From Oerskovia paurometabola (GTDB lineage: Bacteria; Actinomycetota; Actinomycetes; Actinomycetales; Cellulomonadaceae), in the NCBI RefSeq assembly GCF_016907365.1, contig NZ_JAFBBV010000001.1, positions 372,001 through 436,000 of the forward strand: a stretch of 64,000 nt of DNA, given 5' to 3'. Positions 28,753-58,880 of this stretch are shown here, one piece after another. The notes below the pieces were generated by a model that saw only the letters and a program-made list of their open reading frames with translations, ran no database searches and was not told the origin of the DNA. The stretch's first letter is position 1, and each line of letters opens with the position of its first letter. The position numbers and the translations under genes were made by a program.

Positions 28753-29406
28753 TCAGCAGGTCAAGGCGTTGCCCGTCGTGGTGCCCAGGAGCTCGGCGTA
28801 GCGGCGGAACAGCGCGACGCGGTTCGCGACCTGGCGCGGGTTCCCGCCGTCGCACTCGAGCGGGCCGTTGATCGCGCGGATCGTCTCGCGGAAGCCGTGC
28901 TCCCCGACGATCGCCTCGTGGCACGTCATGGTGCCCTCGCCGGGCTGGGTGTTCCAGTACCAGAGCGCCGTCTTCCAGGCGACGGTCGGGTCCGTCTCGA
29001 CGAGGAACGGGTTGTTCAGCAGGTCGATGCCCAGGGCGTCGCCCGCCGCCTTGTAGTTGAAGTTCCAGGAGAGCTGGATGGGGCCCTTGCCGTAGTAGGC
29101 GTCCTGGCCCGCGGGGCACCCGTACGGCTGCGACGGGTCGCAGTAGTGCGAGTACACGGCCGTGTTGAGCTCGCTCACGTGCAGCAGACCCGTGCTCTCG
29201 TGGCTCACGTTCGCGAGGAACGCCGCGGCCTCCCGCTTCGCGATCTCGGTGCCGCCCGACGTCGCGAACTCCGGGTACGCCTCGGTCGCGGCGACCAGGC
29301 CCGCGTACGTGTAGAACGGGTTGCGGTCCGGGAACATCTCCTCGAACTGCGCCTCGGTCACCACGAAGCCCGTCGTGATGCCGCTCGTCGAACCTGTCTC
29401 AGCCAT
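28753..29406 (-). CDS. GH19 chitinase, catalytic domain only, no signal peptide
   Basis: 217 residues from ATG 29406, chosen because GAGAGGG lies 6 nt upstream; an in-frame GTG at 29424 would swallow that site. It is a single GH19 domain starting almost directly at FVVTEAQFEEMFPDRNPFY. Catalytic Glu70 lies in FLANVSHEST with Glu79 as partner, and the YYGKGPIQLSWNFNYKAAG core and C-terminal Cys are intact. Hydrolyses beta-1,4-N-acetylglucosamine polymers with inversion. It lacks the export signal, chitin-binding domain and linker of its close paralogue at 46498, so it may stay inside, leave by lysis or be a truncated copy. Six Cys-containing positions are shared with the secreted copy. Confidence 0.85.
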   Translation of the reverse strand: MAETGSTSGITTGFVVTEAQFEEMFPDRNPFYTYAGLVAATEAYPEFATSGGTEIAKREAAAFLANVSHESTGLLHVSELNTAVYSHYCDPSQPYGCPAGQDAYYGKGPIQLSWNFNYKAAGDALGIDLLNNPFLVETDPTVAWKTALWYWNTQPGEGTMTCHEAIVGEHGFRETIRAINGPLECDGGNPRQVANRVALFRRYAELLGTTTGNALTC

Positions 29407-29498
29407 GAGCCACCCTCTCGTCACTGTTCCCGGCGGAACGTCGTCCGACGACTCGTCAGTGACTCGTCGGCACCCCCCGCCTGCGTTCAGCGGTCACC

Positions 29499-30656
29499 CT
29501 AGGGGACGAGCGAGCGCTCCTCGGCATCGGTGTGCAGTGCGCTCTGCGGGGCGTCCTCGACGTCCGGCTCGGGGCGGTCGCCGGGGCCGGGGGACCCCTC
29601 GGGAGAGACGTCCGCAGGGGTCGCGCCGCCCGTCCTGGCGTACACGAGGACCGCGACCAGACCCGCGACCCACCCCGTGACGAGCGGCCAGAAGAGGCTC
29701 GCCTGCACGGTCGGCAGGACCATGTTCATGGTGGCCGAGTGCAGCCCGAACGCGGTGTACGTCGTGAACGACCGGGTCGCGGCGGGGACCACGGCCGCCA
29801 CGACCGTGGCGAACCAGACCGCGAGCACCAGGGTCCAGCGCCCCGCGCTCGGCGGGAGCCGGCGGGTCGCGAGCCACGTCCCGCCCGCGACGAGCAGGCC
29901 CACGGCCAGGGCGAGGGTCACCTCCATGCCCTGGACCGGTTGCCCTTGCGGCGCGAAGCGGAAGATCATCGCCCCCGTGGCCGCCTCCGCGACGAGGTCG
30001 ATCGGGCCGCGCGCGCTGCGGTGCCACACGAGCCACGAGCTGCCGGCCCCGACCGTGACCCACACGAGCGAGGCCGTGAGGCCTGCGACGAGGACGGTCG
30101 GCCAGGTGCGGGCCCGCAGAGGCTTGCGCGACCTGCGCGTCGCGGGGAGCGTCTGCGCGGAGGAACGGCTCGTCAGGGCGAGGGCCCCGACGAGCGCGAT
30201 GCCCACGAGCCAGCCGTTGACCAGTCCCCACCAGCCGCCCTCGAACGACGCGGCGAGCAGGTGGAACGCCGGGTTCATGGGCGAGGGGAAGGAGATGTCC
30301 GCGACCGTGTCCGCGACCGAACCGGCGGTGCCGCCGGCCACGACCCCGAACCACGTCGCGAGGAAGACGCCCCACGTGCCGGTGCGTGGAGGCAGGCGCC
30401 GCGTCGCGAGGTACGCCACGACCATGACCACCAACCCCGCGAGGAGCGCCGCGAGGATCGTCTGACCCGTGACCGCCGAACCGCCCGGGACCGTGCCGTT
30501 CGGGTGGGGGAGGAACGTCCGGACGAGCGCGCTGTGGACGCGGTACGTGAAGTTCGCGTGGACCCAGTCGCTCAGGACGGCCGTCCCGACCCACAGGATC
30601 GACGTGACCAGCCCGGCGACGAGCACGGCGGGTTCCCTGCGTGACGTCATCGGCAT
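29499..30656 (-). CDS. Multi-pass membrane protein with internal duplication
   Basis: About 385 residues, ATG 30656 or 30650. Two halves resemble each other: PAVLVAGLVTSILWVGTAVLSDWVH and PTVLVAGLTASLVWVTVGAGSSWLVWH, each followed by a loop, VxxLxGLLVxxxxxLATRRLPP and further helices, giving about eight membrane spans. A charged Pro/Glu/Asp tail ends the protein. I recognise no family. The start is 135 nt from the first operator of the divergent LacI promoter, so its own promoter lies in the shared 269-nt region. Confidence 0.6.
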   Translation of the reverse strand: MPMTSRREPAVLVAGLVTSILWVGTAVLSDWVHANFTYRVHSALVRTFLPHPNGTVPGGSAVTGQTILAALLAGLVVMVVAYLATRRLPPRTGTWGVFLATWFGVVAGGTAGSVADTVADISFPSPMNPAFHLLAASFEGGWWGLVNGWLVGIALVGALALTSRSSAQTLPATRRSRKPLRARTWPTVLVAGLTASLVWVTVGAGSSWLVWHRSARGPIDLVAEAATGAMIFRFAPQGQPVQGMEVTLALAVGLLVAGGTWLATRRLPPSAGRWTLVLAVWFATVVAAVVPAATRSFTTYTAFGLHSATMNMVLPTVQASLFWPLVTGWVAGLVAVLVYARTGGATPADVSPEGSPGPGDRPEPDVEDAPQSALHTDAEERSLVP

Positions 30657-30790
30657 GCCCGCGAGGGTAGCGCACGCGCAGGAGGCGACGAGCCCGGTGA
30701 GGGGAGCCCGTGGCCCGGCCCTGCCCGACGGCGGAGCAGGCCCTCGCACGCACGGTGGGCTCCGGCGTCGGGCCCGGAACCGCCCGGCGG

Positions 30791-30820
30791 TTGACACCTT
30801 CCGAGGGCGCGTGCAAGAGT
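30791..30820 (+). promoter_or_regulatory. Promoter of the LacI-led operon
   Basis: TTGACA (30791-30796) with an 18-bp spacer to AAGAGT (30815-30820), a good -35 and weak -10. Both LacI-type operators lie downstream of it. Confidence 0.55.
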
Positions 30821-30832
30821 GCCTCTCAATCC

Positions 30833-30844
30833 GGAAACGTTTCC
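30833..30844. promoter_or_regulatory. LacI-family operator 1
   Basis: GGAAACGTTTCC, a perfect palindrome with the central CG of LacI/GalR-family sites, located just downstream of the promoter. Confidence 0.8.
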
Positions 30845-30865
30845 AGAGTGTTTCGCACCGCTGCG

Positions 30866-30881
30866 TTGGAAACGTTTCCAA
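30866..30881. promoter_or_regulatory. LacI-family operator 2
   Basis: TTGGAAACGTTTCCAA, a 16-bp perfect palindrome with the same core, centred 35 bp from operator 1. Similar spacing allows cooperative binding of two dimers. It ends 44 nt before the regulator's start. Confidence 0.85.
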
Positions 30882-30925
30882 ATCGAGATCTTCCGCACCA
30901 CCTTCGACGGAGAGGGCAGGAACCG

Positions 30926-31966
30926 ATGGCACCACGTGCAACGTTGAACGAGGTCGCCGAGCGCGCAGGGGTGTCCCTCGCCTCGACCTCCCGAGCGCTG
31001 CACGGCTCCGGCGCGAGCAAGGCCATGGTCGAGCGCGTGCGCGCCGCCGCCGACGAGCTCGGGTACAGCCCGGACGCCGTCGGCCGCTCCCTGCGCATGC
31101 GCCGCACGTTCCAGATCGCCTTCGCGGTCGCCGACATCGGCAACCAGGTCTACGTCGAGATGATGTCCGCGATCCACGCGGTCATCGCGCCCTACGGCTA
31201 CCGGGTCGTCGTGACGACCACGGGCGACACGGCGGAGTCCACCACGGACCTCGTGCGCAGCCTCGCGAACGGCATGGTCGACGGGATCGTCCTGAGCCCC
31301 CTGCGCATGAGCGAGGAGCTCGTCCGCGCGATCCACGAGTCCGCGGTGCCGGTCGTCGTGATCGGCCGGTCGCTCGGCGCCCACGGCATCGACTCGGTCT
31401 CGACCGACTCGGCAGGCGGGATCGGCCAGGCCGTGACCCACCTGCTCGATATCGGCCGCCGCCGCATCGCGTTCCTCAACGGCCCCCTCGACACGACCCC
31501 CGGCGAGGCCCGCCAGCGCGGCTTCGACGCCGCCGTCGCCGCCCCGGGGTTCGCCGCCGAGCACGTCGACGTCGAGATCGCCGAGGACTTCACGGTCGCC
31601 GCCGGCCTCGCCGCCACGCGCACGCTCATCGAGCGCAACGCCGCCCGCGGCGGTCTCGACGCGATCGTCGCGGCCAACGACCTGCTCGCGATCGGCGCGA
31701 TGCACGCGGCCCGCCAGAGCGGCCTCGACGTCCCCACCGACCTCGCCGTGACCGGCATGGACGACACCGAGATCGGCCGTGTCTTCTACCCGAGCCTCAC
31801 GAGCGTCTCCCTGGGGTCCGCCGAACGTGGTCGGCGGGCCGCCCAGCTCCTGCTCGGACTGGTCGAGGGCAGCGACCAGGAGACCCGGCACGTGGACGTG
31901 GGGCCGACCCTCCTCGTCCGCGAATCCACCCGACCGACCGACGCACTCGACGGAGAGAAGTCATGA
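30926..31966 (+). CDS. LacI-family transcriptional regulator
   Basis: 346 residues from ATG 30926 (GGAGAGGGCAGG upstream). The N-terminal helix-turn-helix and hinge are canonical: ATLNEVAERAGVSLASTSRALHGSGASKAMVERVRAAADELGYSPDAVGRSLRMRRT. A periplasmic-binding-like effector domain follows (IAFAVADIGNQVY, VDGIVLSPLRMSEE, DSVSTDSAGGIGQAVTHLL, LDAIVAANDLLAIGAM). It controls its own operon via the two palindromes in front of it; the ligand should be the imported sugar or glycoside or a product of it. Its stop overlaps the permease start (ATGA). Confidence 0.9.
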   Translation: MAPRATLNEVAERAGVSLASTSRALHGSGASKAMVERVRAAADELGYSPDAVGRSLRMRRTFQIAFAVADIGNQVYVEMMSAIHAVIAPYGYRVVVTTTGDTAESTTDLVRSLANGMVDGIVLSPLRMSEELVRAIHESAVPVVVIGRSLGAHGIDSVSTDSAGGIGQAVTHLLDIGRRRIAFLNGPLDTTPGEARQRGFDAAVAAPGFAAEHVDVEIAEDFTVAAGLAATRTLIERNAARGGLDAIVAANDLLAIGAMHAARQSGLDVPTDLAVTGMDDTEIGRVFYPSLTSVSLGSAERGRRAAQLLLGLVEGSDQETRHVDVGPTLLVRESTRPTDALDGEKS

Positions 31967-32931
31967 CAGCCCCCACCGTGGAGGCCGGCCCCCGACCGAC
32001 CGCCCCCGCACCCCAGCGGCAGAAGCCGCGCCGGACCGGAGGGATGGCCCGCTCGAAGCGGCGCGAGGCCATCGCCCTCGTCATCCCGTCGCTGCTGCCC
32101 ATCCTCGTCCTGAGCGTCGCGCCCCTCCTGGTCGGCGTCGGCCTCGCGTTCACCGACGCCCGCCTCGTGCGCAACCCCGAGTACGCGTTCGTCGGGATGG
32201 ACAACTTCGTCCGGCTCGCCGACAACTCCTTCTTCTGGGACTCGTTCCGCATCGGCATGATCTGGGCCGTGTCCGTGACGCTGCTCCAGCTCGTCGCGGC
32301 CATGGGCCTCGCGCTCCTGCTCAACTCCGACCTCAAGCTCCAGGGCCTGACCCGCGTGCTCGCGCTCATCCCGTGGGCCATGCCGCCCGTGGTCGTCGCG
32401 ATCATGTGGCGGATGATCTACTCGCCCAACGCGGGGCCGCTCAACGCGTTCCTCGGCAGCGTGGGGCTGCCCGACGACATCAACTGGCTCGCGGACTTCT
32501 CGACCGCGCTGCCGGCAGTGATCGTCGTGGGCATCTGGGTCGGCATGCCGCAGACCACCGTGACGCTGCTCGCCGGGCTCCAGCAGATCCCCGACGAGCT
32601 CCACGAGGCCGCGGCGATCGACGGCGCGAACGCCTGGCGCCGCTTCACCGCGGTCACGCTCCCGAGCCTGCGCCCGATCATCACGTCGATCACCTCGCTC
32701 AACTTCATCTGGAACTTCAACTCGTTCTCCCTGGTCTACGTGCTGACCGAGGGCGGACCGGGCGGCCGCACCATGCTGCCGATGCTCTACACGTACCTCG
32801 AGGCGTTCAAGAACAGGAACATCGGCTACGCGGCCGCCATGGGCGTCGTGCTCGTGGTCGTCGTCGTCCTCCTGCTCGCGATCTACCTGTGGTCCCAGTT
32901 CCGCCAAGACCGCGACAGCACGGGGAAGTGA
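31963..32931 (+). CDS. Sugar ABC transporter permease (MalF type)
   Basis: 322 residues. A basic, Pro-rich cytoplasmic tail precedes the first helix (IALVIPSLLPILVLSVAPLLVGVGLAF). Six spans and an EAA loop EAAAIDGANAWRRF. Forms the channel with the next gene. Starts within the regulator's stop codon, so expression is coupled to the repressor. No ATPase gene is present in the operon. Confidence 0.88.
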   Translation: MTAPTVEAGPRPTAPAPQRQKPRRTGGMARSKRREAIALVIPSLLPILVLSVAPLLVGVGLAFTDARLVRNPEYAFVGMDNFVRLADNSFFWDSFRIGMIWAVSVTLLQLVAAMGLALLLNSDLKLQGLTRVLALIPWAMPPVVVAIMWRMIYSPNAGPLNAFLGSVGLPDDINWLADFSTALPAVIVVGIWVGMPQTTVTLLAGLQQIPDELHEAAAIDGANAWRRFTAVTLPSLRPIITSITSLNFIWNFNSFSLVYVLTEGGPGGRTMLPMLYTYLEAFKNRNIGYAAAMGVVLVVVVVLLLAIYLWSQFRQDRDSTGK

Positions 32932-32935
32932 TCTG

Positions 32936-33763
32936 ATGCGTCATCTCGTCCGGCCCGCCCAGTACGTGGCACTGGCCTTCTACATCGTCTTCCTCGGCTT
33001 CCCGCTGCTGTGGCTCATCTCGGCGTCGCTCAAGTCGTCGGGAGAGCTCAACTCGCTCAGCGTGAGCCTGATCCCGCAGGACATCGAGCTCGGCAACTAC
33101 TCGGCCGCGCTCGAGCGCCAGGGACTCGTGCGCTCGGCGTGGAACTCCGCGATCGTCGCGCTCGTCTCGACCGCGCTCGTGCTCCTCATCGCGCTGCCCG
33201 GCGCGTACGTCCTCGCCCGGCTCAAGGGCCTGGTTCGCGGCATGGGCGTCGGGTGGATCCTGGTCAGCCAGGTCTTCCCCGTCATCCTCATCATCCTGCC
33301 GCTGTTCCTCATCCTGCGGACCATCGGCCTGACCGACAGCCTGGTCGGCCTGACCCTGGTGCACACGACGTACACGCTGCCGTTCGCACTGTGGATGCTG
33401 CAGGGCTACGTGAGCTCGATCCCGATCGAGCTCGAGGAGGCGGGCTCGATGGACGGCGCGAGCCGCCTGACGGTGCTCCGCCAGATCGTCTTCCCGCTCC
33501 TCATGCCGGGCGTCGTCGCGACCGCGATGTTCAGCTTCGTGTCGTCGTGGAACGAGTTCTTCTTCGCGCTCGTGCTGCTCCAGTCGCCCGAGAACTACAC
33601 GCTGCCGATCACGCTCAAGATGTTCATCGGCGGCGAGGGCAAGGTCGCCCTCGGCCCGCTCGCGGCGGGCGCCGTGCTGGCCGCGATCCCGAGCATCGTC
33701 TTCTTCTCGATCATGCAGAAAAGGCTCACCGGCGGACTCCTGTCCGGTGCCGTCAAGGGGTGA
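32936..33763 (+). CDS. Sugar ABC transporter permease (MalG type)
   Basis: 275 residues, starting 4 nt after the previous stop. Six hydrophobic segments and EAA loop EAGSMDGASRLTVLRQIVFPLL. C-terminus MQKRLTGGLLSGAVKG is typical of CUT1 MalG subunits. Second half of the inner-membrane channel. Confidence 0.88.
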   Translation: MRHLVRPAQYVALAFYIVFLGFPLLWLISASLKSSGELNSLSVSLIPQDIELGNYSAALERQGLVRSAWNSAIVALVSTALVLLIALPGAYVLARLKGLVRGMGVGWILVSQVFPVILIILPLFLILRTIGLTDSLVGLTLVHTTYTLPFALWMLQGYVSSIPIELEEAGSMDGASRLTVLRQIVFPLLMPGVVATAMFSFVSSWNEFFFALVLLQSPENYTLPITLKMFIGGEGKVALGPLAAGAVLAAIPSIVFFSIMQKRLTGGLLSGAVKG

Positions 33764-33843
33764 GCGCAGTGCGCCCCCGCCTCGACGGAACCCGTCCCAC
33801 CCACCCCACCCGCACGACCCCCACGCCTCAGAAAGGCAGACAC

Positions 33844-35130
33844 ATGAAGACTCGTGGTGCGTCCATCGCCGCATGCCTCACGATCGGCACCCTGTTCCTC
33901 ACCGCTTGCGGAAGCGGCGGAGACAGCGACGCCGGTGGAGACTCCGGCCCGATCACGCTGAAGTTCCAGTCGCTGTCCGACCAGCCCGCGGCCATCGCCG
34001 CGACCGAGAGCATCGTCTCCGACTGGAACGAGGCCAACCCCGACGTCCAGGTCGAGATCGTCCCCGCAGGGTGGGACGGCATCTACGACAAGCTCATCAC
34101 GCAGTTCAACGGTGGTGCGGCGCCGGACATCATCCACTACGAGGCCGCGAGCATCGTGCCCTTCGCGGCGGACGGCTACCTGGCCGACCTCTCCGAGTAC
34201 ATGTCCGACGAGTTCCGCGCGGACGTCCCCGAGGGCATCCTCGACGCGGTCACGGTCGACGACAAGGTCATCGCGTACCCCACCGAGCTCCAGTCCTACA
34301 TGGTGTTCGCGAACAAGACGCTGCTCGACGCCGCAGGTGTCGCGATCCCCACGGGCGAGACCATGACGTGGGACGAGATGCGCTCGATCGCGCAGGCCAC
34401 GACCAAGGACGGCACGTACGGCCTGGGCTGGGGGCTCAAGAGCCCCACCGCCGCGTACATGTCCTTCGCGCCGGGCTTCGGCGGCACCTACTTCGAGGGC
34501 AGCGGCGCGGACGCCACGCTGACGGTCGGCGAGGGCGAGATGGCCGTGCCGAACCTCGTGGACGCCATGGCGTTCGAAGACAAGTCGATCCTGCCCGTGA
34601 CCCTGAGCCAGACCGGTTCGGAGACGCTCGCGACGTTCTACGCCGGGCAGGTCGCCATGACGATCCAGGGCTCGTTCCAGGCCGCGAACATCGCGACCGA
34701 CGCCCCCGAGGGCTTCGACTGGATCGTGCTCCCGCCGCTCGAGGGGTCGGAGGGCGCCCAGCAGGCCGCCAACCCGCAGACCCTGTCCGTGAACATCGAC
34801 TCCGAGCACGTCGAGGAGTCCGCGGAGTTCATCGAGTTCTTCACGCAGACCGACAACCTGGCCGCCCTCAACGAGGCCGACGCCCTCATCCCCGCGACGA
34901 CGTCCGCGCAGGAGGCCCTCGCGGCCAAGCTCGGCACCGAGAACGGCTGGGACGTCATCCTCTCCTCGGGCCAGCACCTCGTGTCCGCGCCGTACCTCTT
35001 CGTCGACGCCTACGCGCAGTGGAAGGACACGGTCGCGACGCCGGCCTACCAGCGCTTCCTCGCGCAGGAGATCGACGCCGACGGCGTGGCGACCGAGCTG
35101 ACGGCCGGCTGGGAAGAGATCACCAAGTAG
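33844..35130 (+). CDS. ABC transporter substrate-binding lipoprotein
   Basis: 428 residues. Lipobox LTAC with Cys22 after a short signal; then a Gly/Ser/Asp-rich linker and an SBP1 fold (ITLKFQSLSDQPAAIAATESIVSDWNEANPDVQVEIVPAG, PDIIHYEAASIVPFAADGYLADLSEYM). The start is ATG 33844 with AAAGGCAG upstream, separated by 80 nt from the permease. It captures the substrate of this operon outside the membrane. A strong hairpin directly follows the stop and may set its higher expression relative to downstream genes. Confidence 0.88.
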   Translation: MKTRGASIAACLTIGTLFLTACGSGGDSDAGGDSGPITLKFQSLSDQPAAIAATESIVSDWNEANPDVQVEIVPAGWDGIYDKLITQFNGGAAPDIIHYEAASIVPFAADGYLADLSEYMSDEFRADVPEGILDAVTVDDKVIAYPTELQSYMVFANKTLLDAAGVAIPTGETMTWDEMRSIAQATTKDGTYGLGWGLKSPTAAYMSFAPGFGGTYFEGSGADATLTVGEGEMAVPNLVDAMAFEDKSILPVTLSQTGSETLATFYAGQVAMTIQGSFQAANIATDAPEGFDWIVLPPLEGSEGAQQAANPQTLSVNIDSEHVEESAEFIEFFTQTDNLAALNEADALIPATTSAQEALAAKLGTENGWDVILSSGQHLVSAPYLFVDAYAQWKDTVATPAYQRFLAQEIDADGVATELTAGWEEITK

Positions 35131-35136
35131 TGCAAC

Positions 35137-35173
35137 CCGTGCGGACGGCCGGGCAGACCGGCCGTCCGCACGG
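35137..35173 (+). terminator. Intra-operon hairpin after the binding-protein gene
   Basis: A perfect 16-bp stem (CCGTGCGGACGGCCGG and complement) with loop GCAGA, 6 nt after the stop and with no T-run. It can stabilise the upstream mRNA or terminate part of the transcripts, so that the catabolic genes are made at lower level. Confidence 0.7.
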
Positions 35174-35237
35174 ACGACGACCACGGGTGGCCGCGAGTCG
35201 CCCGGACGCAGAACGACGAACGACAGGGAGTGACCTC

Positions 35238-36416
35238 GTGAGCTGGCTGGACGAGAAGGCAGTGGCGGTGATCACCGGCGCAGCCGTCGGCGACGCGCTG
35301 GGTGGGGCGACCGAGGGGTGGACCCCGGAGCAGATCGAGGAGCGCCACGGCGGACGGGTCACGGGCATCGTCGGGCCGTTCTACCCGAACTGGCAGGACG
35401 CCCGCCCCATCGCGCCGTACCACAAGGGCGACGGCCACATCACGGACGACACCCTCATGACGCAGGCGCTCGTCGAGGTCTACGCCAAGCGCCGCGCGCA
35501 CCTCGACGCGTACGCCGTGGCCGAGGACCTGGTCCCGCTCATGATCGGCGAGCCCCGCTGGATCCCCGAGCTCGAGTCGACCGCCCTGCTGCTGCAGCGT
35601 GTGTTCCTCGCGGAGAAGTGGATCGTCGCGCGCCTCCACTACGGGCACGTCGACCCTCGCGAGGCGGGCGTCGGGAACATCGTCAACTGCGGCGCGGCCA
35701 TGTACGTGGCCCCCGTGGGGCTGGCCAACGCGGGCGACCCGCGCGGCGCGTACGCCGAGGCGATCGACCTGACCGGCGCCCACCAGGCGAGCTACGGCCG
35801 TGAGGCCGCGGGCGTGTTCGCGGCCATGGTCGCGGCGGCGGTCGCGCCCGGTGCGAGCGTCGAGGACGTCGTGGCCGCCGCGCTCGACGTCGCGCACGAC
35901 GGGACGCTCGCCGCGCTGCGCGCGGTCGTCGACGCGTTCGACGGCTGGACCACGGTCCCCACGACCGACGAGGAGGAGCGCGCCCTGGCGCGCAGGATCC
36001 GCGAGGTCGTGGCGCCCTTCGACTCGGTGGGCCCCGAGTACCGGCAGATGTCGATGGACGCCCGTCGCCCCTCGCGCACCAAGGCCATCGAGGAGCTGCC
36101 CGCCGCGCTCGGGTTCGTGCTGGGCCACCGCGGCGACTTCCGCGGTGCGGTGCTCGGCGCGGTCAACTACGGGCGCGACGCCGACTCGATCGCGGTCATG
36201 GCAGGGGCGATCACGGCCGGGCTCGGCGGGACCGAGGTCGTGCCGACCGAGTGGCTCGACGAGATCGAGCGCGCGAGCCGGACCGACGTCCGCGCGACCG
36301 GACGCCTCATGGGGCAGGTCGCGGGCGACATCCTGCGCGCCGACCGCGAGGCCGCGAAGGCTCGCCTCCTGGCCCTCGACGAGATCGAGGCCGCGACGGT
36401 GGGAGCCTCGGCGTGA
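35238..36416 (+). CDS. ADP-ribosylglycohydrolase family protein (first of pair)
   Basis: 392 residues, GTG start. The ARH/DraG fold is clear: AVITGAAVGDALGGATEGW, metal motif GHITDDTLMTQ and C-terminal NYGRDADSIAVMAGAITAG, which supply the paired Asp ligands of a binuclear Mg site. These enzymes cleave N- or O-glycosidic bonds at the anomeric carbon of ribose. Within a sugar-uptake operon with a ribokinase-like gene, hydrolysis of an imported ribosyl compound is more likely than protein de-ADP-ribosylation. The stop overlaps the next start (GTGA). Confidence 0.82.
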   Translation: MSWLDEKAVAVITGAAVGDALGGATEGWTPEQIEERHGGRVTGIVGPFYPNWQDARPIAPYHKGDGHITDDTLMTQALVEVYAKRRAHLDAYAVAEDLVPLMIGEPRWIPELESTALLLQRVFLAEKWIVARLHYGHVDPREAGVGNIVNCGAAMYVAPVGLANAGDPRGAYAEAIDLTGAHQASYGREAAGVFAAMVAAAVAPGASVEDVVAAALDVAHDGTLAALRAVVDAFDGWTTVPTTDEEERALARRIREVVAPFDSVGPEYRQMSMDARRPSRTKAIEELPAALGFVLGHRGDFRGAVLGAVNYGRDADSIAVMAGAITAGLGGTEVVPTEWLDEIERASRTDVRATGRLMGQVAGDILRADREAAKARLLALDEIEAATVGASA

Positions 36417-37807
36417 GACTCACCTGGGCCCAGCCCGAGGACCTGCTCGCGCACGAGCTCGTCCAGTCGACCATCGAGGGCAAGGACGTCTCCGCGGTCG
36501 TCGCACGATGGACCGCGGCGGGCGGCGACGTCGTCCCGGCCGTGAGCGGCGCGGGCCCCGTGCCCGCGCCCCCGGCGCTGCGCACCCTGGCGCGCGAGCT
36601 CCTCGACGAGCTCGACGCCCTGTCCGCGGCGCCGGCCCCGGCCGAGCCGGACGGGTGGGCGCAGATCGCCGCGCTCCTCCCAGCACCCCCGGCTCTCCCC
36701 ACGGTGCCCGACGACGAGCTCGCCCGCCGCGTGCACGGCGCCTGGACCGGACGCTCGGCAGGGTGCCTCCTGGGCAAGCCCGTCGAGAAGATCCCGCGCC
36801 AGGGCATCGAGGAGATCCTGCGGGCGACGGGCCGCTGGCCCCTGGCCACGTGGTTCACGGCGGTCGGGCTCCCCGAGGACGTCGCGGCGCGCTGGCCCTG
36901 GAACCGGCGCAGCGCCCCGACCTCGCTCGAGGAGAACATCGACGGGATGCCCGAGGACGACGACCTCAACTACCCGATCCTCGCGCTCGCCCTGCTCGAG
37001 AAGCACGGCACGGGCTTCACGACCGACGACGTCGCCCAGCTCTGGCTCGACAACCTGCCCGCGGGGCGCGTCTTCACCGCGGAGCGCGCGGCGTACCGCA
37101 ACATCCTCGACGCGCGTCCCGTGCCCGAGACCGCGACGCACCAGAACCCGTTCCGCGAGTGGATCGGTGCGCTCATCCGCACCGACGTGCTCGGGTGGGT
37201 CGCCCCGGGAGACGTCCGGAGCGCGGCGTACCTCGCATGGGTCGACGCGCGCCTGAGCCACACGCGCAACGGCGTCTACGGCGCCATGTGGGCGGCTGCG
37301 CTCGCATCGGCCTCGATGGTCTGCGCGAGCGTCGAGGACGTGCTCGACGCGGCGCACACCGTGCTGCCCCCGGACAGCCGGATCGCGCAGGCCGTCCGCC
37401 TGGGCCGCGAGGCCGCGCAGGACGGCGACGTGAGCGTCGGTCTTGACCGGATCCACGCCGCGTACGGGGACCTGCACTGGGTCCACGTGCTCAACAACGC
37501 GGCCGTGATCGCCTACGCCCTGACCAAGGGTGCGGGGGACTTCGGGTCGAGCGTCTCGATCGCGGTCACCGCGGGCTGGGACACCGACTCGGCCGCCGCG
37601 ACCGTGGGGGGCGTCGTCGGTGCCCTGCTCGGGACCGACGGGATCGGGGAGCGGTGGACCGCGCCGCTCGACGGTCGCATCGCGACCTCGCTCCCCGGCG
37701 GGGAGCAGCGCATCGACGACCTCGCGGCGCGAACGCTCGCGCTGCGGCTCACGGAAGCGGTGGTCCCTGCGGCCGACACTGCCGACACTGCGGGGGCCGG
37801 CGCATGA
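36413..37807 (+). CDS. ADP-ribosylglycohydrolase family protein (second of pair)
   Basis: 464 residues, GTG start in the stop of the first. An unmatched ~105-residue N-terminal region precedes the ARH core (ELARRVHGAWTGRSAGCLLGKPVEK). The first metal motif is altered, reading MPEDDDLNYPILALALLEKHG instead of TDDT, while the C-terminal AGWDTDSAAATVGGVVGALLG is normal. It may act on a different glycoside or form a heterodimer with the first. It overlaps the kinase start (ATGA). Confidence 0.78.
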   Translation: MRLTWAQPEDLLAHELVQSTIEGKDVSAVVARWTAAGGDVVPAVSGAGPVPAPPALRTLARELLDELDALSAAPAPAEPDGWAQIAALLPAPPALPTVPDDELARRVHGAWTGRSAGCLLGKPVEKIPRQGIEEILRATGRWPLATWFTAVGLPEDVAARWPWNRRSAPTSLEENIDGMPEDDDLNYPILALALLEKHGTGFTTDDVAQLWLDNLPAGRVFTAERAAYRNILDARPVPETATHQNPFREWIGALIRTDVLGWVAPGDVRSAAYLAWVDARLSHTRNGVYGAMWAAALASASMVCASVEDVLDAAHTVLPPDSRIAQAVRLGREAAQDGDVSVGLDRIHAAYGDLHWVHVLNNAAVIAYALTKGAGDFGSSVSIAVTAGWDTDSAAATVGGVVGALLGTDGIGERWTAPLDGRIATSLPGGEQRIDDLAARTLALRLTEAVVPAADTADTAGAGA

Positions 37808-38757
37808 GCCCCGACCCGAGCGCGCACCGCCGGGGGAGCGTCGTCGTCGTCGGCTCGGCCAACGTCGACCTCGTGGTCGACGTCCCCCGGCACCCCGGCG
37901 GCGGCGAGACGATCCTCGGCGGCGACCTGCGCCGCAGCCCCGGCGGCAAGGGGGCCAACCAGGCCGTCGCCGCGGCCCGGGCGGGCGGCGCCGACACGAC
38001 CTTCGTCGGAGCCCTCGGCCGCGACGAGTCGGGCGAGCTGCTGCTCGCCTCGCTCGACGGCGCAGGGGTGCGCACCGACCTCGTCGAGCGCACTGCGGCC
38101 CCCACGGGCACCGCGCTCATCACGGTCTCGCCCGACGGCGAGAACGCGATCGTCGTCGCCCCGGGGGCGAACTCCCACGTGCGTATCGGCCCGGAGCAGG
38201 CCGAGCGGATCGGCGCCGCGGACGTCGTCCTGGCGCAGCTCGAGATCCCGCTCGACGTCGTCCTCGCCGCGGGTGCCGCTCGCAGGCCGGGGGCTGTGCT
38301 CGCGCTCAACGCCGCACCGTCCCGCGACCTGCCCGACGAGATGTGGGCCGCGCTCGACCTGCTGATCGTCAACGAGCACGAGGCGCGCGACCTCGCGGGG
38401 GAGGCCGCCGCCCCCACGGACCCCGTCGACGCCGCCGAGCACCTGGCCGCGACCCTGCTCGCCAGGGTGCCCGCCGTCGTCGTGACGCTCGGCGGTGCAG
38501 GGTGCCTGGTCGCCCAGCGTGGCTCGGCCCCCGTCCGCGTCCCGGCCCCGCGCGTCGACGCCGTCGACACGACCGGCGCGGGCGACACCTTCTGCGGCGT
38601 GCTCGCCGCCGCTCTCGCGGGCGGGTCCACCCTCGTGGACGCCGCCCGGACCGCCTCGTTCGCAGGCGCCCTGGCCGTGACCCGGCCCGGCGCCCAGGAC
38701 GCCGTGCCCACGGCCGACGAGGTCACCACCTTCGCGCACTCGGAGCAGCAGCCATGA
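37804..38757 (+). CDS. PfkB-family sugar kinase (ribokinase-like)
   Basis: 317 residues. Substrate loop GGKGANQ (47-53), N-terminal VVVGSANVDLVVDVPRHPGGGE of ribokinases, and the ATP/catalytic motif VDTTGAGDTFCG near residue 256-266. It phosphorylates a pentose or related furanose, plausibly the sugar released by the ARH enzymes. Coupled by ATGA overlaps on both sides. Confidence 0.85.
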   Translation: MSPDPSAHRRGSVVVVGSANVDLVVDVPRHPGGGETILGGDLRRSPGGKGANQAVAAARAGGADTTFVGALGRDESGELLLASLDGAGVRTDLVERTAAPTGTALITVSPDGENAIVVAPGANSHVRIGPEQAERIGAADVVLAQLEIPLDVVLAAGAARRPGAVLALNAAPSRDLPDEMWAALDLLIVNEHEARDLAGEAAAPTDPVDAAEHLAATLLARVPAVVVTLGGAGCLVAQRGSAPVRVPAPRVDAVDTTGAGDTFCGVLAAALAGGSTLVDAARTASFAGALAVTRPGAQDAVPTADEVTTFAHSEQQP

Positions 38758-40805
38758 GCTACACGTTCGACCCGCTCGTCCCCCGCCCCATCGACCTCCC
38801 GACGGTCGTCCCGCTCGACGCCGCCACCGGTGCCACCGCCGACGCCACGCAGGATCTCGCCGCGCTCGACCAGGCGAAGATCTTCGCCGCGCCCGACGAC
38901 CCGGCGCAGTGGGCCGCGTGGCGCGAGCGGCTCGAGGCGTGGCGCACCGACGCGCGCGAGCGCCACGGCTTCACGGGCGCCGTGTACGAGCGTCCCCAGG
39001 CCGCGTGGGCCGCGAGCTGCTTCACGATCGCGCAGGTCTGGCTGTGGGACGAGCTGCTCTACTCGTTCGAGGAGAACCGCTTCACGCCCGAACGCTTCCT
39101 GGCCGACGCGCGCGAGCGCTTCGCGGACCTCGACGCCGTGGTGCTGTGGCACGCGTACCCGGTGATCGGGATCGACGACCGCAACCAGTGGGACTTCTAC
39201 CGCGACGTCCCGGGCCTCACGGGGCCGGACGGCCTGGTCGCGACCCTGCACGCCGCAGGCCTGCACGTGTTCGTCGACTTCAACCCGTGGGACACGGGCA
39301 CGCGCCGCGGCGAGGACGACCTGACCGAGCTCGCCGCGGTCGTCGCGGACCTTCCCGCGGACGGCGTCTTCCTCGACACGCTCAAGAAGGCCGAGCCCGA
39401 GCTCGTCGAGCGGCTCGAGGCCGCCCGGCCGGGCATCGTGCTGGAGGGCGAGTCCAAGCTCGCGGTCGAGCGCATCGAGGACCACTCGTCGTCGTGGGCG
39501 CAGTTCTTCGCCGACTCGCCCGTGCCGGGCGTGCTGCGCGCGCACTGGTACGAGCGCCGCCACATGCAGCACCACGTGCGCCGCTGGAACCGCGACCACA
39601 CCGACGAGCTGCAGTCCGCCTGGATCAACGGCGTGGGCGTCATGGTGTGGGAGGTCGTGTTCGGGGTGTGGGTCGGGTGGAGCGAGCGCGACGCCGCGAC
39701 CCTGCGCCGTATGGTCACGGTCCAGCGCGCTGCCAAGGACCTGCTGCTCGACGGCGAGTGGACCCCGCTCACGGACCTCGCCCCCGAGGCGCGCGAGGCG
39801 GGCGTGCACGCGTCCCTCTTCTCGCACGAGGGCGTCTCGGTGTGGACGCTCGTCAACCGCAGCGAGCAGGACTACACGGGACCGGTGCTCACCGGCGCGC
39901 CCGCCGGGCGCGTGATCGACCTGACCGGACCAGTGATCCCGGGGCGCGGCATCGCCGCGCTCGTGCACGTCGCCCCCGGCGCCGAGGAGCCCGACTGGCT
40001 CCCCGGCCTGGTCGAGGACATGCGCCGCCACGCGCCCAGCGCCGACGCACGGTTCCCGCACCGCCTCGCGCGCCGGATCGTGCCGGAGGTCCCGGCATCC
40101 TGGGCCGACGGCGCACCGACCCACGCCGGGACCGGGCCGGGCCGGGACGCGGAGGCGAGCGCCGTCGTCGTGCCTGCGGGGCCCTACGTCCTGACCGTGC
40201 GCTACCGCGCCCGCGAGACCGGGATGTACCAGGGCGCGCCGTACGTCGAGGAGTGGAAGCCCCTCGCGCCGCGCCTGCACGACCCGCGCACGCTCCAGCG
40301 CGACGGCGAGCTCGCCGCTCCCGTCGCGGTCGCGGCGACCGAGGTCACCAACGCGCAGTTCGCGGCGTTCGTCGACGCCACGGGCTACCGACCGGCCACC
40401 CGGCACCGGTTCCTCGCACACTGGGTGGACGGGCGACCGCCCGCGGGGCGCGAGGACGAGCCCGTGACGTTCGTCGACCTCGACGACGCGCGCGCCTACA
40501 GCGCGTGGCGCGGAGGCCGCCTCCCGAGCGAGGACGAGTGGCAGCTCGCGGGGGAGACGGGCGGCCTGCTGCGCGGCGCGCCCGTCGTGTGGAACTGGAC
40601 GGAGAGCGAGCACAGCGACGGCCGCACGCGGTACGTCATGCTCAAGGGCGGTGCGGACCACGAGTCGACCGGTTCCGAGTGGTACTTCGACGGCGGCGTC
40701 CAGCGCCCCGAGTTCAGCGCCAAGCTGCTCCTGCCTGGTCTGGGTCTGGCGCGCAGCGCGAGCATCGGCTTCCGCTGCGCGTGGACCGTGGAGGTGACGG
40801 CATGA
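38754..40805 (+). CDS. Putative glycoside-hydrolase-like barrel fused to a SUMF1/FGE-like domain
   Basis: 683 residues, ATG overlapping the kinase stop. The N-terminal ~450 residues look like a TIM-barrel hydrolase: VYERPQAAWAASCFTIAQVWLWDE, FVDFNPWDTGTRRGEDDL, GVFLDTLKKAEPEL, IVLEGESKLAVERIED, with acidic residues at strand ends and a C-terminal all-beta part. From about residue 510 there is a SUMF1 (formylglycine-generating enzyme-type) domain: TEVTNAQFAAFVDATGY, PVTFVDLDDARAYSAWRGGRLPSEDEWQ, ending SIGFRCAW. The paired active-site Cys of true FGE are not evident, so this domain is probably a ligand-binding or structural C-type-lectin fold. No signal peptide. The enzyme's reaction is unknown. 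Confidence 0.7.
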   Translation: MSYTFDPLVPRPIDLPTVVPLDAATGATADATQDLAALDQAKIFAAPDDPAQWAAWRERLEAWRTDARERHGFTGAVYERPQAAWAASCFTIAQVWLWDELLYSFEENRFTPERFLADARERFADLDAVVLWHAYPVIGIDDRNQWDFYRDVPGLTGPDGLVATLHAAGLHVFVDFNPWDTGTRRGEDDLTELAAVVADLPADGVFLDTLKKAEPELVERLEAARPGIVLEGESKLAVERIEDHSSSWAQFFADSPVPGVLRAHWYERRHMQHHVRRWNRDHTDELQSAWINGVGVMVWEVVFGVWVGWSERDAATLRRMVTVQRAAKDLLLDGEWTPLTDLAPEAREAGVHASLFSHEGVSVWTLVNRSEQDYTGPVLTGAPAGRVIDLTGPVIPGRGIAALVHVAPGAEEPDWLPGLVEDMRRHAPSADARFPHRLARRIVPEVPASWADGAPTHAGTGPGRDAEASAVVVPAGPYVLTVRYRARETGMYQGAPYVEEWKPLAPRLHDPRTLQRDGELAAPVAVAATEVTNAQFAAFVDATGYRPATRHRFLAHWVDGRPPAGREDEPVTFVDLDDARAYSAWRGGRLPSEDEWQLAGETGGLLRGAPVVWNWTESEHSDGRTRYVMLKGGADHESTGSEWYFDGGVQRPEFSAKLLLPGLGLARSASIGFRCAWTVEVTA

Positions 40806-42010
40806 CCGTCTCGCGCAACCCGCAGGACGGAGCGCTCGCGGGGCTCAAGGTCGTCGACGCCTCGACGCTCTTCGCGGGGCCCATGGCGGCCATGCACCTG
40901 GGCGACATGGGGGCCGACGTGATCAAGGTCGAGCACCCCACCAAGCCCGACCCCTCGCGCGGGCACGGCGCCTCGAAGGACGGCGTCAACCTCTGGTGGA
41001 AGACGCTCGGGCGCAACAAGCGCGCCGTGACCGTCAACCTGTCGAGCGACGGCGGGCGCGAGGTCTTCCTGGCGCTCGCAGCAGAGGCCGACGTCGTGAT
41101 CGAGAACTTCCGTCCCGGGACGCTCGAGCGCTGGGGCCTGGGCTACGACGAGCTCTCGGCGCACAACCCACGCCTCGTGCTCGCGCGCATCAGCGGGTTC
41201 GGGCAGGTGGGGCCGTACCGGTCGCGGCCCGGGTTCGGGACGCTCGCCGAGGCCATGAGCGGGTTCGCGGCCATGACGGGCGAGGCAGACGGCCCGCCGA
41301 CCCTGCCGCCGTTCGGCCTCGCGGACGGCGTCGCGTCGCTCGCGACCGCGTTCGCGGTCATGGTCGCGCTCCAGAGCCGTGAGCGCACGGGGCGCGGCCA
41401 GGTCGTCGACACCGCGATCATCGAGCCCATCCTCGCGATGCTCGGGCCCCAGATCACGCGGTGGGACCAGCTGCGGACCGTGCAGCCGCGCACGGGCAAC
41501 CGCTCGGCGAACAACGCGCCGCGCAACACGTACCGCACGAGCGACGGCCAGTGGGTCGCGGTCTCGACCTCGGCGCAGTCGATCGCCGAGCGCGTCATGC
41601 GCCTCGTCGGGCACCCCGAGGTCATCGACGAGCCGTGGTTCGCGGTGGGGGCCGAGCGCGCCCAGCACGCCGACGAGCTCGACGCGGCCGTGGGCGGCTG
41701 GATCGCGCAGCGCACGCGCGACGAGGTCGTGGCGGCGTTCGAGGAGGCGCAGGCCGCGGTCGCGCCCATCTACGACGCGCAGGACATCGTGGGCGACCCG
41801 CAATTCCAGGCGCTCGGCACGCTCCACGAGATCGAGGACCCCGACCTCGGGCCCATGCTCATGCAGGGCCCGCTGTTCCGGCTCTCGGACCACGACGGCG
41901 TCATCGGGTTCACGGGCCGTGCGCACGGCGCCGACACCGACGAGGTGCTGGGCGAGCTGGGCTTCGACGCCGAGCGCGTCGCCGCGCTGCGGGAGGCGGG
42001 GGCCGTATGA
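40802..42010 (+). CDS. CaiB/BaiF-family (class III) CoA-transferase
   Basis: 402 residues. Family features: LAGLKVVDASTLFAGPMAAMHLGDMGADVIKVEHP, IENFRPGTLERWGLGYDEL, ISGFGQVGPYRSRPGFGTLAEAMSGFAAMTGE with the catalytic-Asp-bearing region and GRGQVVDTAIIEP. Transfers CoA between carboxylic acids. Coupled to the lyase gene by ATGA, giving a transferase-lyase pair of the kind that activates and then cleaves hydroxy-acids (malyl-CoA, citramalyl-CoA). Confidence 0.87.
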   Translation: MTVSRNPQDGALAGLKVVDASTLFAGPMAAMHLGDMGADVIKVEHPTKPDPSRGHGASKDGVNLWWKTLGRNKRAVTVNLSSDGGREVFLALAAEADVVIENFRPGTLERWGLGYDELSAHNPRLVLARISGFGQVGPYRSRPGFGTLAEAMSGFAAMTGEADGPPTLPPFGLADGVASLATAFAVMVALQSRERTGRGQVVDTAIIEPILAMLGPQITRWDQLRTVQPRTGNRSANNAPRNTYRTSDGQWVAVSTSAQSIAERVMRLVGHPEVIDEPWFAVGAERAQHADELDAAVGGWIAQRTRDEVVAAFEEAQAAVAPIYDAQDIVGDPQFQALGTLHEIEDPDLGPMLMQGPLFRLSDHDGVIGFTGRAHGADTDEVLGELGFDAERVAALREAGAV

Positions 42011-42837
42011 GCACCCCGCCGCTCACGCTGCTCTACGCCCCGGGAGACCGGCCCGACCGCGTCGCCAAGGCGTTCGCGACGTCGGCCGACGTCGTGATCG
42101 TCGACCTCGAGGACGCGGTCGCCCCGGCGGCCAAGGAGTCCGCGCGCGCCTCGGCCGTCGCGCTGCTGGCCGAGGTCTCGCGCCGGGTCCAGGTGCGCGT
42201 CAACCAGCGCGGCACGCCCTGGCACGCCGACGACGTCGTGGCGGTCGCGATGCTGCCACGCGCCGTGGGGGCTCGCGTGCCCAAGGTCGAGTCGGCCGAC
42301 GAGGTCCGCGACCTCGCCGCCGCGCTGCCCGGGCGCGACCTGCACCTGCTGATCGAGTCGGCGCTCGGGGTCGAGCGCGCATTCGAGATCGCGTCCGCCT
42401 CGCCCCAGGTGGCGTCGGTCGGGCTGGGCGAGGCCGACCTGCGCTCGGACCTGCGCGTGGACGACGACGGCGCGCTAGCCTGGGTGCGCAGCCGCCTCGT
42501 GGTCGCGGCGCGGGCCGCCGGACTGCCGTCGCCGTCCATGTCGGCGTACACGCACGTCAAGGACCTCGACGGGCTCGTGGCCTCGTGCCGCGCGGGCCGT
42601 GCGCTCGGCTTCCTGGGGCGCACCGCGATCCACCCCGTCCAGCTCGACCCCATCCGCGAGGCGTTCCTCCCGAGCACCGACGAGGTGTCGCGAGCGCGCG
42701 AGGTGCTCGACCGCGTCGGCACCGCGGCCGCGCGCGGGGTCGGGGCGATCGCGCTCCCCGACGGCACGTTCCTCGACGTCGCGATGGTCGAGCGCGCGCG
42801 CTCGGTCCTCGCGGTCGCGGGGGAGACCCCGCACTGA
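42007..42837 (+). CDS. CitE-like (HpcH/HpaI) CoA-ester lyase
   Basis: 276 residues. The CitE family TIM barrel begins LLYAPGDRPDRVAKAFATSADVVIVDLEDAVAP, then VRVNQRGTPWHADDV, VPKVESADEV, LIESALGVERA, VGLGEADLRSDL and GRTAIHPVQLDPI. The Mg ligands Glu (VESA/LIES region) and Asp (GEADL) are in place. Acts on a 3-hydroxy-acyl-CoA to give acetyl- or propionyl-CoA and a 2-oxo acid. Last gene of the LacI operon. Confidence 0.85.
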   Translation: MSTPPLTLLYAPGDRPDRVAKAFATSADVVIVDLEDAVAPAAKESARASAVALLAEVSRRVQVRVNQRGTPWHADDVVAVAMLPRAVGARVPKVESADEVRDLAAALPGRDLHLLIESALGVERAFEIASASPQVASVGLGEADLRSDLRVDDDGALAWVRSRLVVAARAAGLPSPSMSAYTHVKDLDGLVASCRAGRALGFLGRTAIHPVQLDPIREAFLPSTDEVSRAREVLDRVGTAAARGVGAIALPDGTFLDVAMVERARSVLAVAGETPH

Positions 42838-46497: not shown

Positions 46498-47472
46498 TCA
46501 GCAGGTGAGGTTCGAGCCCGTCGTCGTGCCCAGGATCTGCGCGAAGCGCTGGAACGCCGCGATGCGGCTCTGCACCTGCGCAGGGTTGCCGCCGTTGCAC
46601 TCGAGCGTGCCGTTGATCGAGCGGATCGTCTCACCGAAGCCCGCGCCGCTGACGATGGCCTGGTGGCCCGACATGGTGCCCGGGCCCGACTGCGTGTTCC
46701 AGTACCAGAGGCCCGTCTTCCAGGCCACGGCCGGGTCGGTCTCGACCAGGTACGGGTTGTTCAGCAGGTCGATGCCCAGGGCGTCACCCGCAGCCTTGTA
46801 GTTGTAGTTCCACGAGAGCTGGATCGGCCCCTTGCCGTAGTACGCCGACTGACCCGCGGGGCAGCCGTAGGACTTGCTCGTGTCGCAGTAGTGCGAGTAG
46901 TTCGCGGTGTTGCTCTCCTTGATGTAGACCAGGCCACCCGTCTCGTGGTTGATGTTCGCGAGGAACGCCGCGGCCTCACGCTTGGCGACCTCGGTGCCGC
47001 CCGACGTGGCGAACTGCGGGTACGCGCTGAGCGCTGCGACGAGGCCCTGATAGGTGTAGAACGGGTTCCGGTTGGGGAACATCTGGTTGAACTGGGCCTC
47101 GCTCACCACGAAGCTGCCCGTGCTGCCGCCGGTGCTGCCGCCGGTCGTCCCGCCCGTGGTGCCACCGGTGGTGCCACCCGTGGTGCCGCCGGTCGAGCCG
47201 CAGGCGCCCTGGGAACGCCAGACGCCCCACTGGCCCGTGGTGCCCGGGGCCTCGCCCTGGGTCCACCACCCGGCCTTCCAGTTCTGGTTGTCCTTCGAGA
47301 CGACCGCGCCGCCCGTGTAGACCGCGGACGAGGACCACGCCGGAGCGCACACCTCGGCAGCGGCCGCGCGGGGCGCGGGTCCGGCGATCGACCACGCGAG
47401 GGCCGTCGTCAGGAGAAGAGCAAGGAGGGCCAGCACCGTCGCTGGTCGTCGGATCGTTCGTGCCGTGAGCAT
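46498..47472 (-). CDS. Secreted GH19 chitinase with CBM5/12 chitin-binding domain
   Basis: 324 residues, GAGAGG ribosome site. Signal peptide 1-39 (hydrophobic VLALLALLLTTALAWSIA, cleavage near AAAAE). Residues 42-91 are a CBM5/12 module with aromatic binding residues in NWKAGWWTQGEAP and two Cys. A Gly/Ser/Thr linker made of TGG repeats (92-120) follows, then the GH19 domain with catalytic Glu177 (NINHETGG) and Glu186. About 70 percent of positions look identical to the chitinase at 28753. Upstream, ACGTA-N8-TACGT (47541-47558) could be a control site. Degrades chitin outside the cell and may inhibit fungi. Confidence 0.9.
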   Translation of the reverse strand: MLTARTIRRPATVLALLALLLTTALAWSIAGPAPRAAAAEVCAPAWSSSAVYTGGAVVSKDNQNWKAGWWTQGEAPGTTGQWGVWRSQGACGSTGGTTGGTTGGTTGGTTGGSTGGSTGSFVVSEAQFNQMFPNRNPFYTYQGLVAALSAYPQFATSGGTEVAKREAAAFLANINHETGGLVYIKESNTANYSHYCDTSKSYGCPAGQSAYYGKGPIQLSWNYNYKAAGDALGIDLLNNPYLVETDPAVAWKTGLWYWNTQSGPGTMSGHQAIVSGAGFGETIRSINGTLECNGGNPAQVQSRIAAFQRFAQILGTTTGSNLTC

Positions 47473-51011: not shown

Positions 51012-51141
51012 GGTGCCTCCATGGTCGCTGGGTGAGTCTGCGAGCCTGAATGTACGGTTCTTTGGCACCTGGTAGGAGGGTCGAGCGGGTGAAATCGGCA
51101 CGCGTCGACGAAAGTCGAACGTCAAATGGTTCGAAGTCGCA

Positions 51142-52821: not shown

Positions 52822-53123
52822 GGGGTCTCAACCGATGGCGCCGTGAGCGAACGGTGACGTTCGATCGGTGCCAGAGCCATGGGCGCCCGGTGTTCCTCCC
52901 AGTGCTTGCCCAACCAGTCCACCTGCTCGTCCTCTAGCGCCACGTTCAGGTGCTCGTCGTGCAGCCTGGCGTACTGCGGGAACTGGGTGAGCTCGGACCC
53001 GACGTCGATTCGAAGGCGGGAGGGGTCCACTGCGATCAGTCCGTCGTCGAAAAGGCGGTGAACGTCTAGCCGGAGCATCAGGCCACCATGCTCATTTTCA
53101 CGAGTCTGCGACCAGCTCCGCAT
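52818..53123 (-). pseudogene. HNH endonuclease C-terminal fragment
   Basis: 101 codons. ENEHGGLMLRLDVHRLFDDGLIAVDPSRLRID and LHDEHLNVALEDEQVDWLGKHWEEHR match the end of HNH_2-type nucleases (typical NGLLLRxDLHxLFDxGLIAV). The catalytic half with the CxxC/His core is missing, and a stop lies directly upstream of the first Met. The stop overlaps the macro/SIR2 start (ATGA). Probably a remnant, but a translated stub coupled to the next gene cannot be excluded. Confidence 0.65.
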
Positions 53124-53324
53124 TGAAGCCTCAACTCATGGGTCTAGTGGGCGCTGACGAGGCGTAGCCCAAGGAAGTCTCGCGTGGTCAATCAGGCTCT
53201 TCGTAGTTGGGGTGCCGATGGTGACAGGTAGCGCCGGGCCGGTGCTCGGGCGACCCAATGGTCGGACGCTCGCCCGGGACTGTCCTACCCTGGGATCCCA
53301 CTCAGCTCACCAAGGTAGGTAGAG

Positions 53325-57340: not shown

Positions 57341-57343
57341 TTG

Positions 57344-57969: not shown

Positions 57970-57984
57970 GGTCCACACCCTGCT

Positions 57985-58824: not shown

Positions 58825-58880
58825 GATCGCCGTTGTTTTGAGACGCGCCGCAGTGTGGAGATCGACGCAGGGGGAGTGCG

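Follow-up and report, generated by a model that had tools for sequence, protein, structure and literature searches.

The window, a stretch of 64,000 nucleotides from Oerskovia paurometabola with a GC content of 71%, belongs to a genome of 4.33 Mb in one contig and carries ten genes that run head-to-tail from a LacI-type repressor to a CitE-like lyase (30926-42837). A sequence-only reading had assigned all ten to families, and profile matches bore out every assignment. For the repressor, the importer, the ribokinase-like kinase, the CoA-transferase and the hydroxyacyl-CoA lyase the support consists of family matches, joined for the enzymes by invariant residues. The features are given below together with the esterase gene that follows.

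30833..30844, no strand, operator site 1, GGAAACGTTTCC, exact match
30868..30879, no strand, operator site 2, GGAAACGTTTCC, exact match, 35 bases downstream of site 1
30926..31966, + strand, LacI-family repressor, PF00356 and PF13377 above cut-off
31963..32931, + strand, ABC sugar permease 1, CUT1 type, PF00528
32936..33763, + strand, ABC sugar permease 2, PF00528
33844..35130, + strand, solute-binding lipoprotein, PF01547, lipobox LTAC read by eye
35128..35237, + strand, lipoprotein-ARH1 gap with a long hairpin without a T run, from its minimum free energy (MFE) against shuffles
35238..36416, + strand, ARH1, ADP-ribosylglycohydrolase-family enzyme, GTG start
36413..37807, + strand, ARH2, ADP-ribosylglycohydrolase-family enzyme, PF03747, motifs PEDDD and WDTDS
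37804..38757, + strand, PfkB kinase, ribokinase-like, PF00294, TIGR02152 at 273 bits, below the cut-off of 299.65
38754..40805, + strand, fusion of a GH13/GH129-like barrel and a SUMF1-like domain
40802..42010, + strand, class III CoA-transferase CaiB/Frc, PF02515, 397.2 bits
42007..42837, + strand, CitE-like hydroxyacyl-CoA lyase, PF03328
42915..45452, + strand, esterase, linked neighbour, PF00756, propeller repeats, signal-peptide-like N-terminus by eye

All five junctions from the ARH pair to the lyase (ARH1-ARH2, ARH2-PfkB, PfkB-fusion, fusion-CaiB and CaiB-CitE) are indeed the 4-base ATGA/GTGA overlaps claimed for them, and the LacI-permease 1 junction, as read from the letters, is also a 4-base overlap. 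The remaining gaps measure 4 bases between the two permeases, 80 between permease 2 and the lipoprotein and 107 between the lipoprotein and ARH1. Since gene order and overlaps recur across other genera, this arrangement is not a matter of chance. The hairpin in the last gap has an MFE of -57.2 against -43.25 (sd 3.23) for 200 shuffles, a z of -4.32, and may decouple the lipoprotein level from the enzyme levels.

Two GH19 chitinase genes, at 28753-29493 and 46498-47436 and both on the minus strand, flank the operon and the esterase, and in L031, L033 and L036 the operon lies likewise between a pair of related genes (cluster u6). A third ARH gene (48148-49188, minus strand) stands alone ~5 kb beyond the operon, PF03747 being found at just three places in the genome. 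The window also holds another sugar-importer operon at 23-7440 (lipoprotein, two permease-like genes, an 822-residue protein and GH43) and a defence-like region at 50214-62430 (SIR2-EcsC protein, HATPase, Mrr-helicase, DndB-like and C5 cytosine methylase).

The operator and its distribution

Two perfect operators had been noted ahead of the repressor gene; both are exact copies of GGAAACGTTTCC, and they are the sole exact ones in the genome. A palindromic operator and a LacI gene are both present at the head of the operon, and LacI probably recognizes the two sites. We scanned 13 genomes for exact sites, namely this one and the genomes of 12 loci chosen out of 80 of relatives. Each of the 12 held one or two exact copies, 21 in total, every one directly upstream of LacI when set against the locus ranges, so that 23 of 23 exact sites sit at the ARH operon. 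Judged by exact sites, the repressor thus seems to have one target in the 13 genomes, and an operator found at the ARH operon alone offers a direct route to the compound via the repressor. The regulon as a guide to the substrate was given up, since the 13 genomes hold no further exact operator and no extra genes were gained.

Upstream regions were compared for 74 of the best 80 loci, those with at least 250 bases before the LacI match, a set slightly different from the 74 loci counted for gene content. An exact copy is present in 58 of the 74 and two exact copies in 35, while 68 carry the site with at most one mismatch. As a control, exact copies occurred in 11 of 800 random windows of the same loci, some of them possibly the operator itself. 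The single promoter that had been placed at the head of the operon did not emerge from a sigma-70 consensus scan of 30650-31000, which is a weak scan for an actinobacterium of 71% GC.

Conservation and variation of the gene set

An ARH2 scan returned at least 585 relatives, and the best 80 of them were kept, a choice by which the set leans toward close relatives. The genera include Oerskovia, Cellulosimicrobium, Promicromonospora, Amycolatopsis, Saccharopolyspora, Nocardiopsis, Microbacterium, Jiangella and Nocardioides. Six loci with too short a flank (L040, L049, L055, L075, L095 and L101) were dropped. In the 74 counted, the permeases and the lipoprotein are present in 74, ARH2 in 74 (by construction), LacI and ARH1 in 73 each, CaiB in 71, CitE in 70, the fusion in 64 and PfkB in 57. 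A consistent lack of CaiB and CitE in homologous operons had been named as what would speak against the proposed pathway; both are kept in 70 of the 74 loci, and that objection falls away. L060 and L092 have neither gene nearby and L104 has a partial CaiB close to the locus start, and the genomes of all three are without a CaiB match at E 1e-100. In L069 the fusion, CaiB and CitE lie on a separate contig (L129). In six Microbacterium loci (L085, L091, L093, L096, L097 and L103) CaiB-CitE stand upstream of LacI, and the two proteins are more divergent there, at 65-69 and 41-44%, respectively. A scan with the fusion protein gave strong matches in 15 of 99 genomes, our own included; ARH2 and CaiB adjoin the fusion in all 15 loci fetched and PfkB does so in 14.

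A second pair of PF03747 genes, ARH3 and ARH4, is found in 12 of the best 80 loci. Among the 74 loci, 61 have the fusion only, nine have ARH3/ARH4 only, three have both and one (L069) has neither. The second pair is therefore carried by 9 of the 10 fusion-less loci and missing from 61 of the 64 fusion loci, with a Fisher p of 1.9e-8 that overstates the association because the loci are related and count many times. As one mostly stands where the other is missing, the fusion and the second pair may do the same job.

The esterase gene starts 77 bases past the end of CitE and has a relative in 14 of the best 80 loci. In L067 it begins 3 bases past CitE (our own ORF call) and in L106 it is fused to the GH/SUMF1 protein; this fusion and the close spacing suggest an ester in the substrate, at least in some species. 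The earlier account of the operon, sound for its ten genes, had left out its tie to the esterase, the additional ARH pair at fusion-less loci and an importer-less version in another genus.

That version came from an evenly sampled draw of 396 genomes across the phylum, in which up to four candidates were scored per genome listed. An ARH2 match at E 1e-30 occurs in 16 genomes, and 10 have a strong one (E <= 4.8e-158), our own genome included. ARH1-ARH2-CaiB-CitE are kept in 10 of the 10 strong genomes, nine of which belong to one genus (g56). From the 20 places listed we fetched 16 regions, with no separate region for two short pieces, in G306 and G479, or for a further place in G202. The nine strong loci (L111-L119) have the order ARH3-ARH4-ARH1-ARH2-(PfkB in six)-CaiB-CitE, with the second ARH pair present and no match to the fusion; within the 18-20 kb fetched, a search for the LacI, permeases and lipoprotein of the window found nothing. 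With no importer nearby, the compound may in these organisms be made intracellularly. In L111 and L114 a VIT1-family gene and then a gltB-like gene lie on one side and lgt-, trpA-, trpB- and trpC-like genes on the other, all of these names except VIT1 being our own reading of protein starts, and gene sizes suggest the same flanks for the other seven loci. In the seven regions with weaker ARH2 relatives (L120-L126), neither an ARH1 nor a CaiB of the operon's type was seen. In L120 the importer genes match weakly (25-34%). The weaker ARH2 relative of L121, L122 and L124 (43-44%) has a CitE-like gene (29-31%) no more than 10 kb away, and the gene adjoining it in L121 starts like a glycerate kinase.

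Catalytic residues of the operon enzymes

ARH1 and ARH2 match PF03747 above cut-off and have the ARH fold. Their two-metal motifs at both ends are complete, with 10 of 10 positions in each protein, and show no variation across 19 and 20 aligned relatives, respectively; ARH2 also has an N-terminal extension of ~105 residues. Neither protein reaches the DraG equivalog TIGR02662 (54.4 and 19 bits for a cut-off of 337.05) or the Tri1 equivalog NF041672 (45.9 and 18.9 bits for a cut-off of 490). Alpha-ribosides are the bond usually cut by ARH enzymes, and the pair may cut such a ribosyl link in the compound taken up; a literature search found no assay of this ARH group on a riboside.

The PfkB kinase, whose score stays below the ribokinase equivalog, has seven ribose-site and catalytic positions that are invariant in 66 of 66 relatives. 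At the positions checked it matches the residues that we take to be the ribose contacts of E. coli RbsK. CaiB is the sole match of the genome to PF02515, and its Asp D175 aligns with the corresponding Asp in five relatives of solved structure and is kept in 82 of 82 sequences. A sister CaiB/CitE pair in L127 (68 and 51% identical) has a cyclase next to it and two MmgE/PrpD genes in the vicinity, company that agrees with a hydroxy polycarboxylic acid. In L086, genes at 16427-18521 after CitE are sucC- and sucD-like by their protein starts and could give CaiB succinyl-CoA.

The CitE-like lyase scores below the equivalogs RipC_Ccl (155.9 against 375 bits) and CitE (135.5 against 443.4 bits), and its R64, E117 and D144, the catalytic Arg and the metal-binding Glu and Asp, are invariant in 81 of 81 relatives. 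From conserved blocks rather than a printed alignment, these residues appear to correspond to Arg64, Glu112 and Asp138 of Rv2498c. The latter enzyme is a bifunctional lyase of (S)-citramalyl-CoA and (R)-HMG-CoA in which the substrate carboxylate is held by the metal (PMC6689899), and it does not cleave (S)-citryl-CoA. A ferulate route through CaiB and CitE was dropped, given that the set has no hydratase and that the Rv2498c metal binds a substrate carboxylate.

The importer consists of two permeases and a lipoprotein of sugar type, and the operon has no ATPase gene; CUT1 operons usually come without one of their own. The lipoprotein pointed to no substrate, its closest solved sequence being YesO (5z6b) at only 82.5 bits. 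In the fusion protein, whose best database match is 98% identical and bears the name Oerskovia paurometabola, the barrel acids of the GH13/GH129-like domain are invariant in 67 of 67 relatives. The formylglycine-generating enzyme (SUMF1) has two copper-binding cysteines near its C-terminus, and no conserved Cys pair was seen in the SUMF1 region of the fusion, the only such columns being 583 (66% Cys, the window protein lacking it) and 675 (79%). Since the pair is missing and the SenA and EgtB equivalogs score far below cut-off, we discarded the idea of a formylglycine or EgtB-type enzyme.

Proposed pathway, alternatives and known systems

We propose, as the economical account and at a probability of about 0.55, that the operon serves the import of a riboside-like glycoside, the release of its ribose by the ARH enzymes, phosphorylation of the sugar, and the conversion of a beta-hydroxy acid to its CoA ester, which is then cleaved. 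A dedicated LacI repressor would hold the operon closed at the two operator sites, and the arriving glycoside would be taken up by the CUT1-type ABC importer. The GH13/GH129-like barrel would open one bond, a task that would fall to the second ARH pair in other genera, with the esterase assisting in some species. ARH1 and ARH2 would act as a two-metal ribosidase rather than as erasers of ADP-ribosylation, freeing ribose or a ribose-like furanose that the ribokinase-like kinase would phosphorylate. The leftover beta-hydroxy carboxylic acid, which may be citramalate-, malate-, hydroxymethylglutarate- or citrate-like, would receive CoA from CaiB, and the CitE-like lyase would split the CoA ester into an acyl-CoA and an oxo-acid. 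It is the order of these steps, the identities of the sugar and the acid, and the place of the acid as a part or the aglycone of the imported compound that we infer. The absence of PfkB from 17 of the 74 loci and of the fusion from 10 of the 74 counts against the pathway. So do the missing CaiB and CitE at L060 and L092, the nine strong loci of the phylum draw with neither LacI nor importer nearby, the displaced and more divergent CaiB-CitE of the six Microbacterium loci, and the sub-cut-off equivalog scores of kinase, CoA-transferase and lyase.

A common acid is unlikely because malate or citrate in free form would not have to pass through a CoA ester, and for citrate itself the case is further weakened by the failure of Rv2498c to cleave (S)-citryl-CoA. 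Ribocitrin, a Streptomyces metabolite, is a ribofuranosyl citric acid. The text available for PMC13136089 gives a tentative LC-MS identification of ribocitrin from a strain of Streptomyces; it calls the compound an inhibitor of dextransucrase and its biosynthesis still to be worked out. A more specific version of our proposal, in which this branch of the ARH family is a small-molecule ribosidase whose substrate is a tertiary beta-hydroxy polycarboxylic acid carrying a ribofuranosyl group, ribocitrin being the known example, is a long shot: ARH would free ribose, the kinase would yield ribose 5-phosphate, CaiB would load the acid and the CitE-like lyase would split it. Under it a run of four ARH genes in Streptomyces, which seem to form two pairs with one member devoid of metal motifs, would be a turnover route for such a compound and not a set of ADP-ribosylation erasers. 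We keep this version at low odds because free citrate would hardly need CaiB and CitE.

Two alternatives to the riboside pathway are each unlikely. The first is that the ARH proteins are true ADP-ribosyl hydrolases, acting on an enzyme of the operon or another target, and that the rest is an ordinary operon for a sugar and an organic acid. Their fold and metal motifs are those of ARH3 and DraG, and the S. coelicolor genes SCO2028-SCO2031 are counted among candidate ADP-ribosyl hydrolases (available text of PMC9411070; the first three also in that of PMC5087735). On the other hand, the profile matches reveal no ADP-ribosyltransferase family among the ten operon genes, two to four ARH genes beside a kinase, a CoA-transferase and a lyase would be odd for a regulatory eraser, and the DraG and Tri1 scores fall far under the cut-offs. 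SCO2028 and SCO2030 were inactive on U-alpha-ADP-ribose, a negative that hardly discriminates, as the other ARH-like proteins tested were likewise inactive (available portion of PMC13036486).

The second supposes that ARH1 and ARH2 act on a non-ribose furanose or a cis-diol glycoside and that the acid derives from the sugar instead of being an aglycone. The loci without PfkB would suit it, as would single genes close to the operon in two loci, a GH43 in L106 and a member of a sugar-dehydrogenase family in L058. Yet where the kinase is present it retains the checked residues of the presumed RbsK ribose-contact list, and dehydrogenase, isomerase and dehydratase are absent from the ten core genes.

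We consider it improbable that the operon clears a harmful, antibiotic-like ribosylated compound, imported or self-made, rather than serving nutrition. A patchy spread (strong fusion matches in 15 of 99 genomes and strong ARH2 matches in 10 of 396) and the nine loci without an importer nearby are compatible with such a role, but a sugar importer and a kinase leading into central metabolism fit nutrition better. The ten core genes include no exporter, yet 6 of 80 loci carry an MFS gene (cluster u4), which in L037 is directly upstream of LacI. Very improbable, finally, is the joining of two unrelated pathways in one operon with CaiB and CitE unconnected with the glycoside, for which their position upstream of LacI in the six Microbacterium loci might speak, since they adjoin the ARH operon even there and accompany the ARH genes at the nine loci that show neither LacI nor importer.

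The riboside pathway can be set against several known systems. As a LacI/CUT1 operon the locus is of a familiar type, and its enzyme set is, as far as we found, undescribed: in a literature search outside which most subscription journals lay, no account of ARH genes with CaiB and CitE was among the matches listed. Pairs of a succinyl-CoA:malate/citramalate CoA-transferase and a malyl/citramalyl-CoA lyase belong to the 3-hydroxypropionate bicycle and to itaconate pathways. Like the operon they couple a CaiB-type CoA-transferase with a CitE-type lyase, and to our knowledge they operate without a sugar importer, ARH or sugar kinase. The CoA-transferase, lyase and kinase of the operon differ from the known equivalogs in that all fall below the NCBI cut-offs. 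The metal- and hydroxyl-binding Glu, Asp and Arg of Rv2498c appear, by our own reading, to be kept in the lyase.

The E. coli yegTUV operon, the closest described one that we found, likewise combines an ARH (YegU), a sugar kinase (YegV) and an importer in one repressed operon. In the available text of PMC10819704, it differs in its nucleoside-type symporter, its GntR regulator YegW/GgaR and its single ARH, and no CoA-transferase, lyase or GH/SUMF1 fusion is part of it; the same text ties yegTUV to glycogen and describes genes without a clear function.

S. coelicolor SCO2028-SCO2031 resemble L111-L119 in being four consecutive ARH genes near trp genes. The available text of PMC9411070 treats all four as uncharacterized DraG/ARH homologues and candidate ADP-ribosyl hydrolases, that of PMC5087735 does so for SCO2028, SCO2029 and SCO2030, and SCO2038 lies within the trpCXBA locus (available text of PMC5036795). 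By position near trp and gene count, as judged from locus numbers rather than sequence, SCO2028-SCO2031 probably correspond to our nine loci. The conserved set suggests a new role for enzymes usually seen as removers of ADP-ribose. If the proposal is true, it points toward an unrecognised class of natural glycoside and gives a testable function to enzymes listed merely as ADP-ribosyl hydrolase candidates, possibly covering four among the eight DraG/ARH homologues that the accessible part of PMC9411070 names in S. coelicolor.
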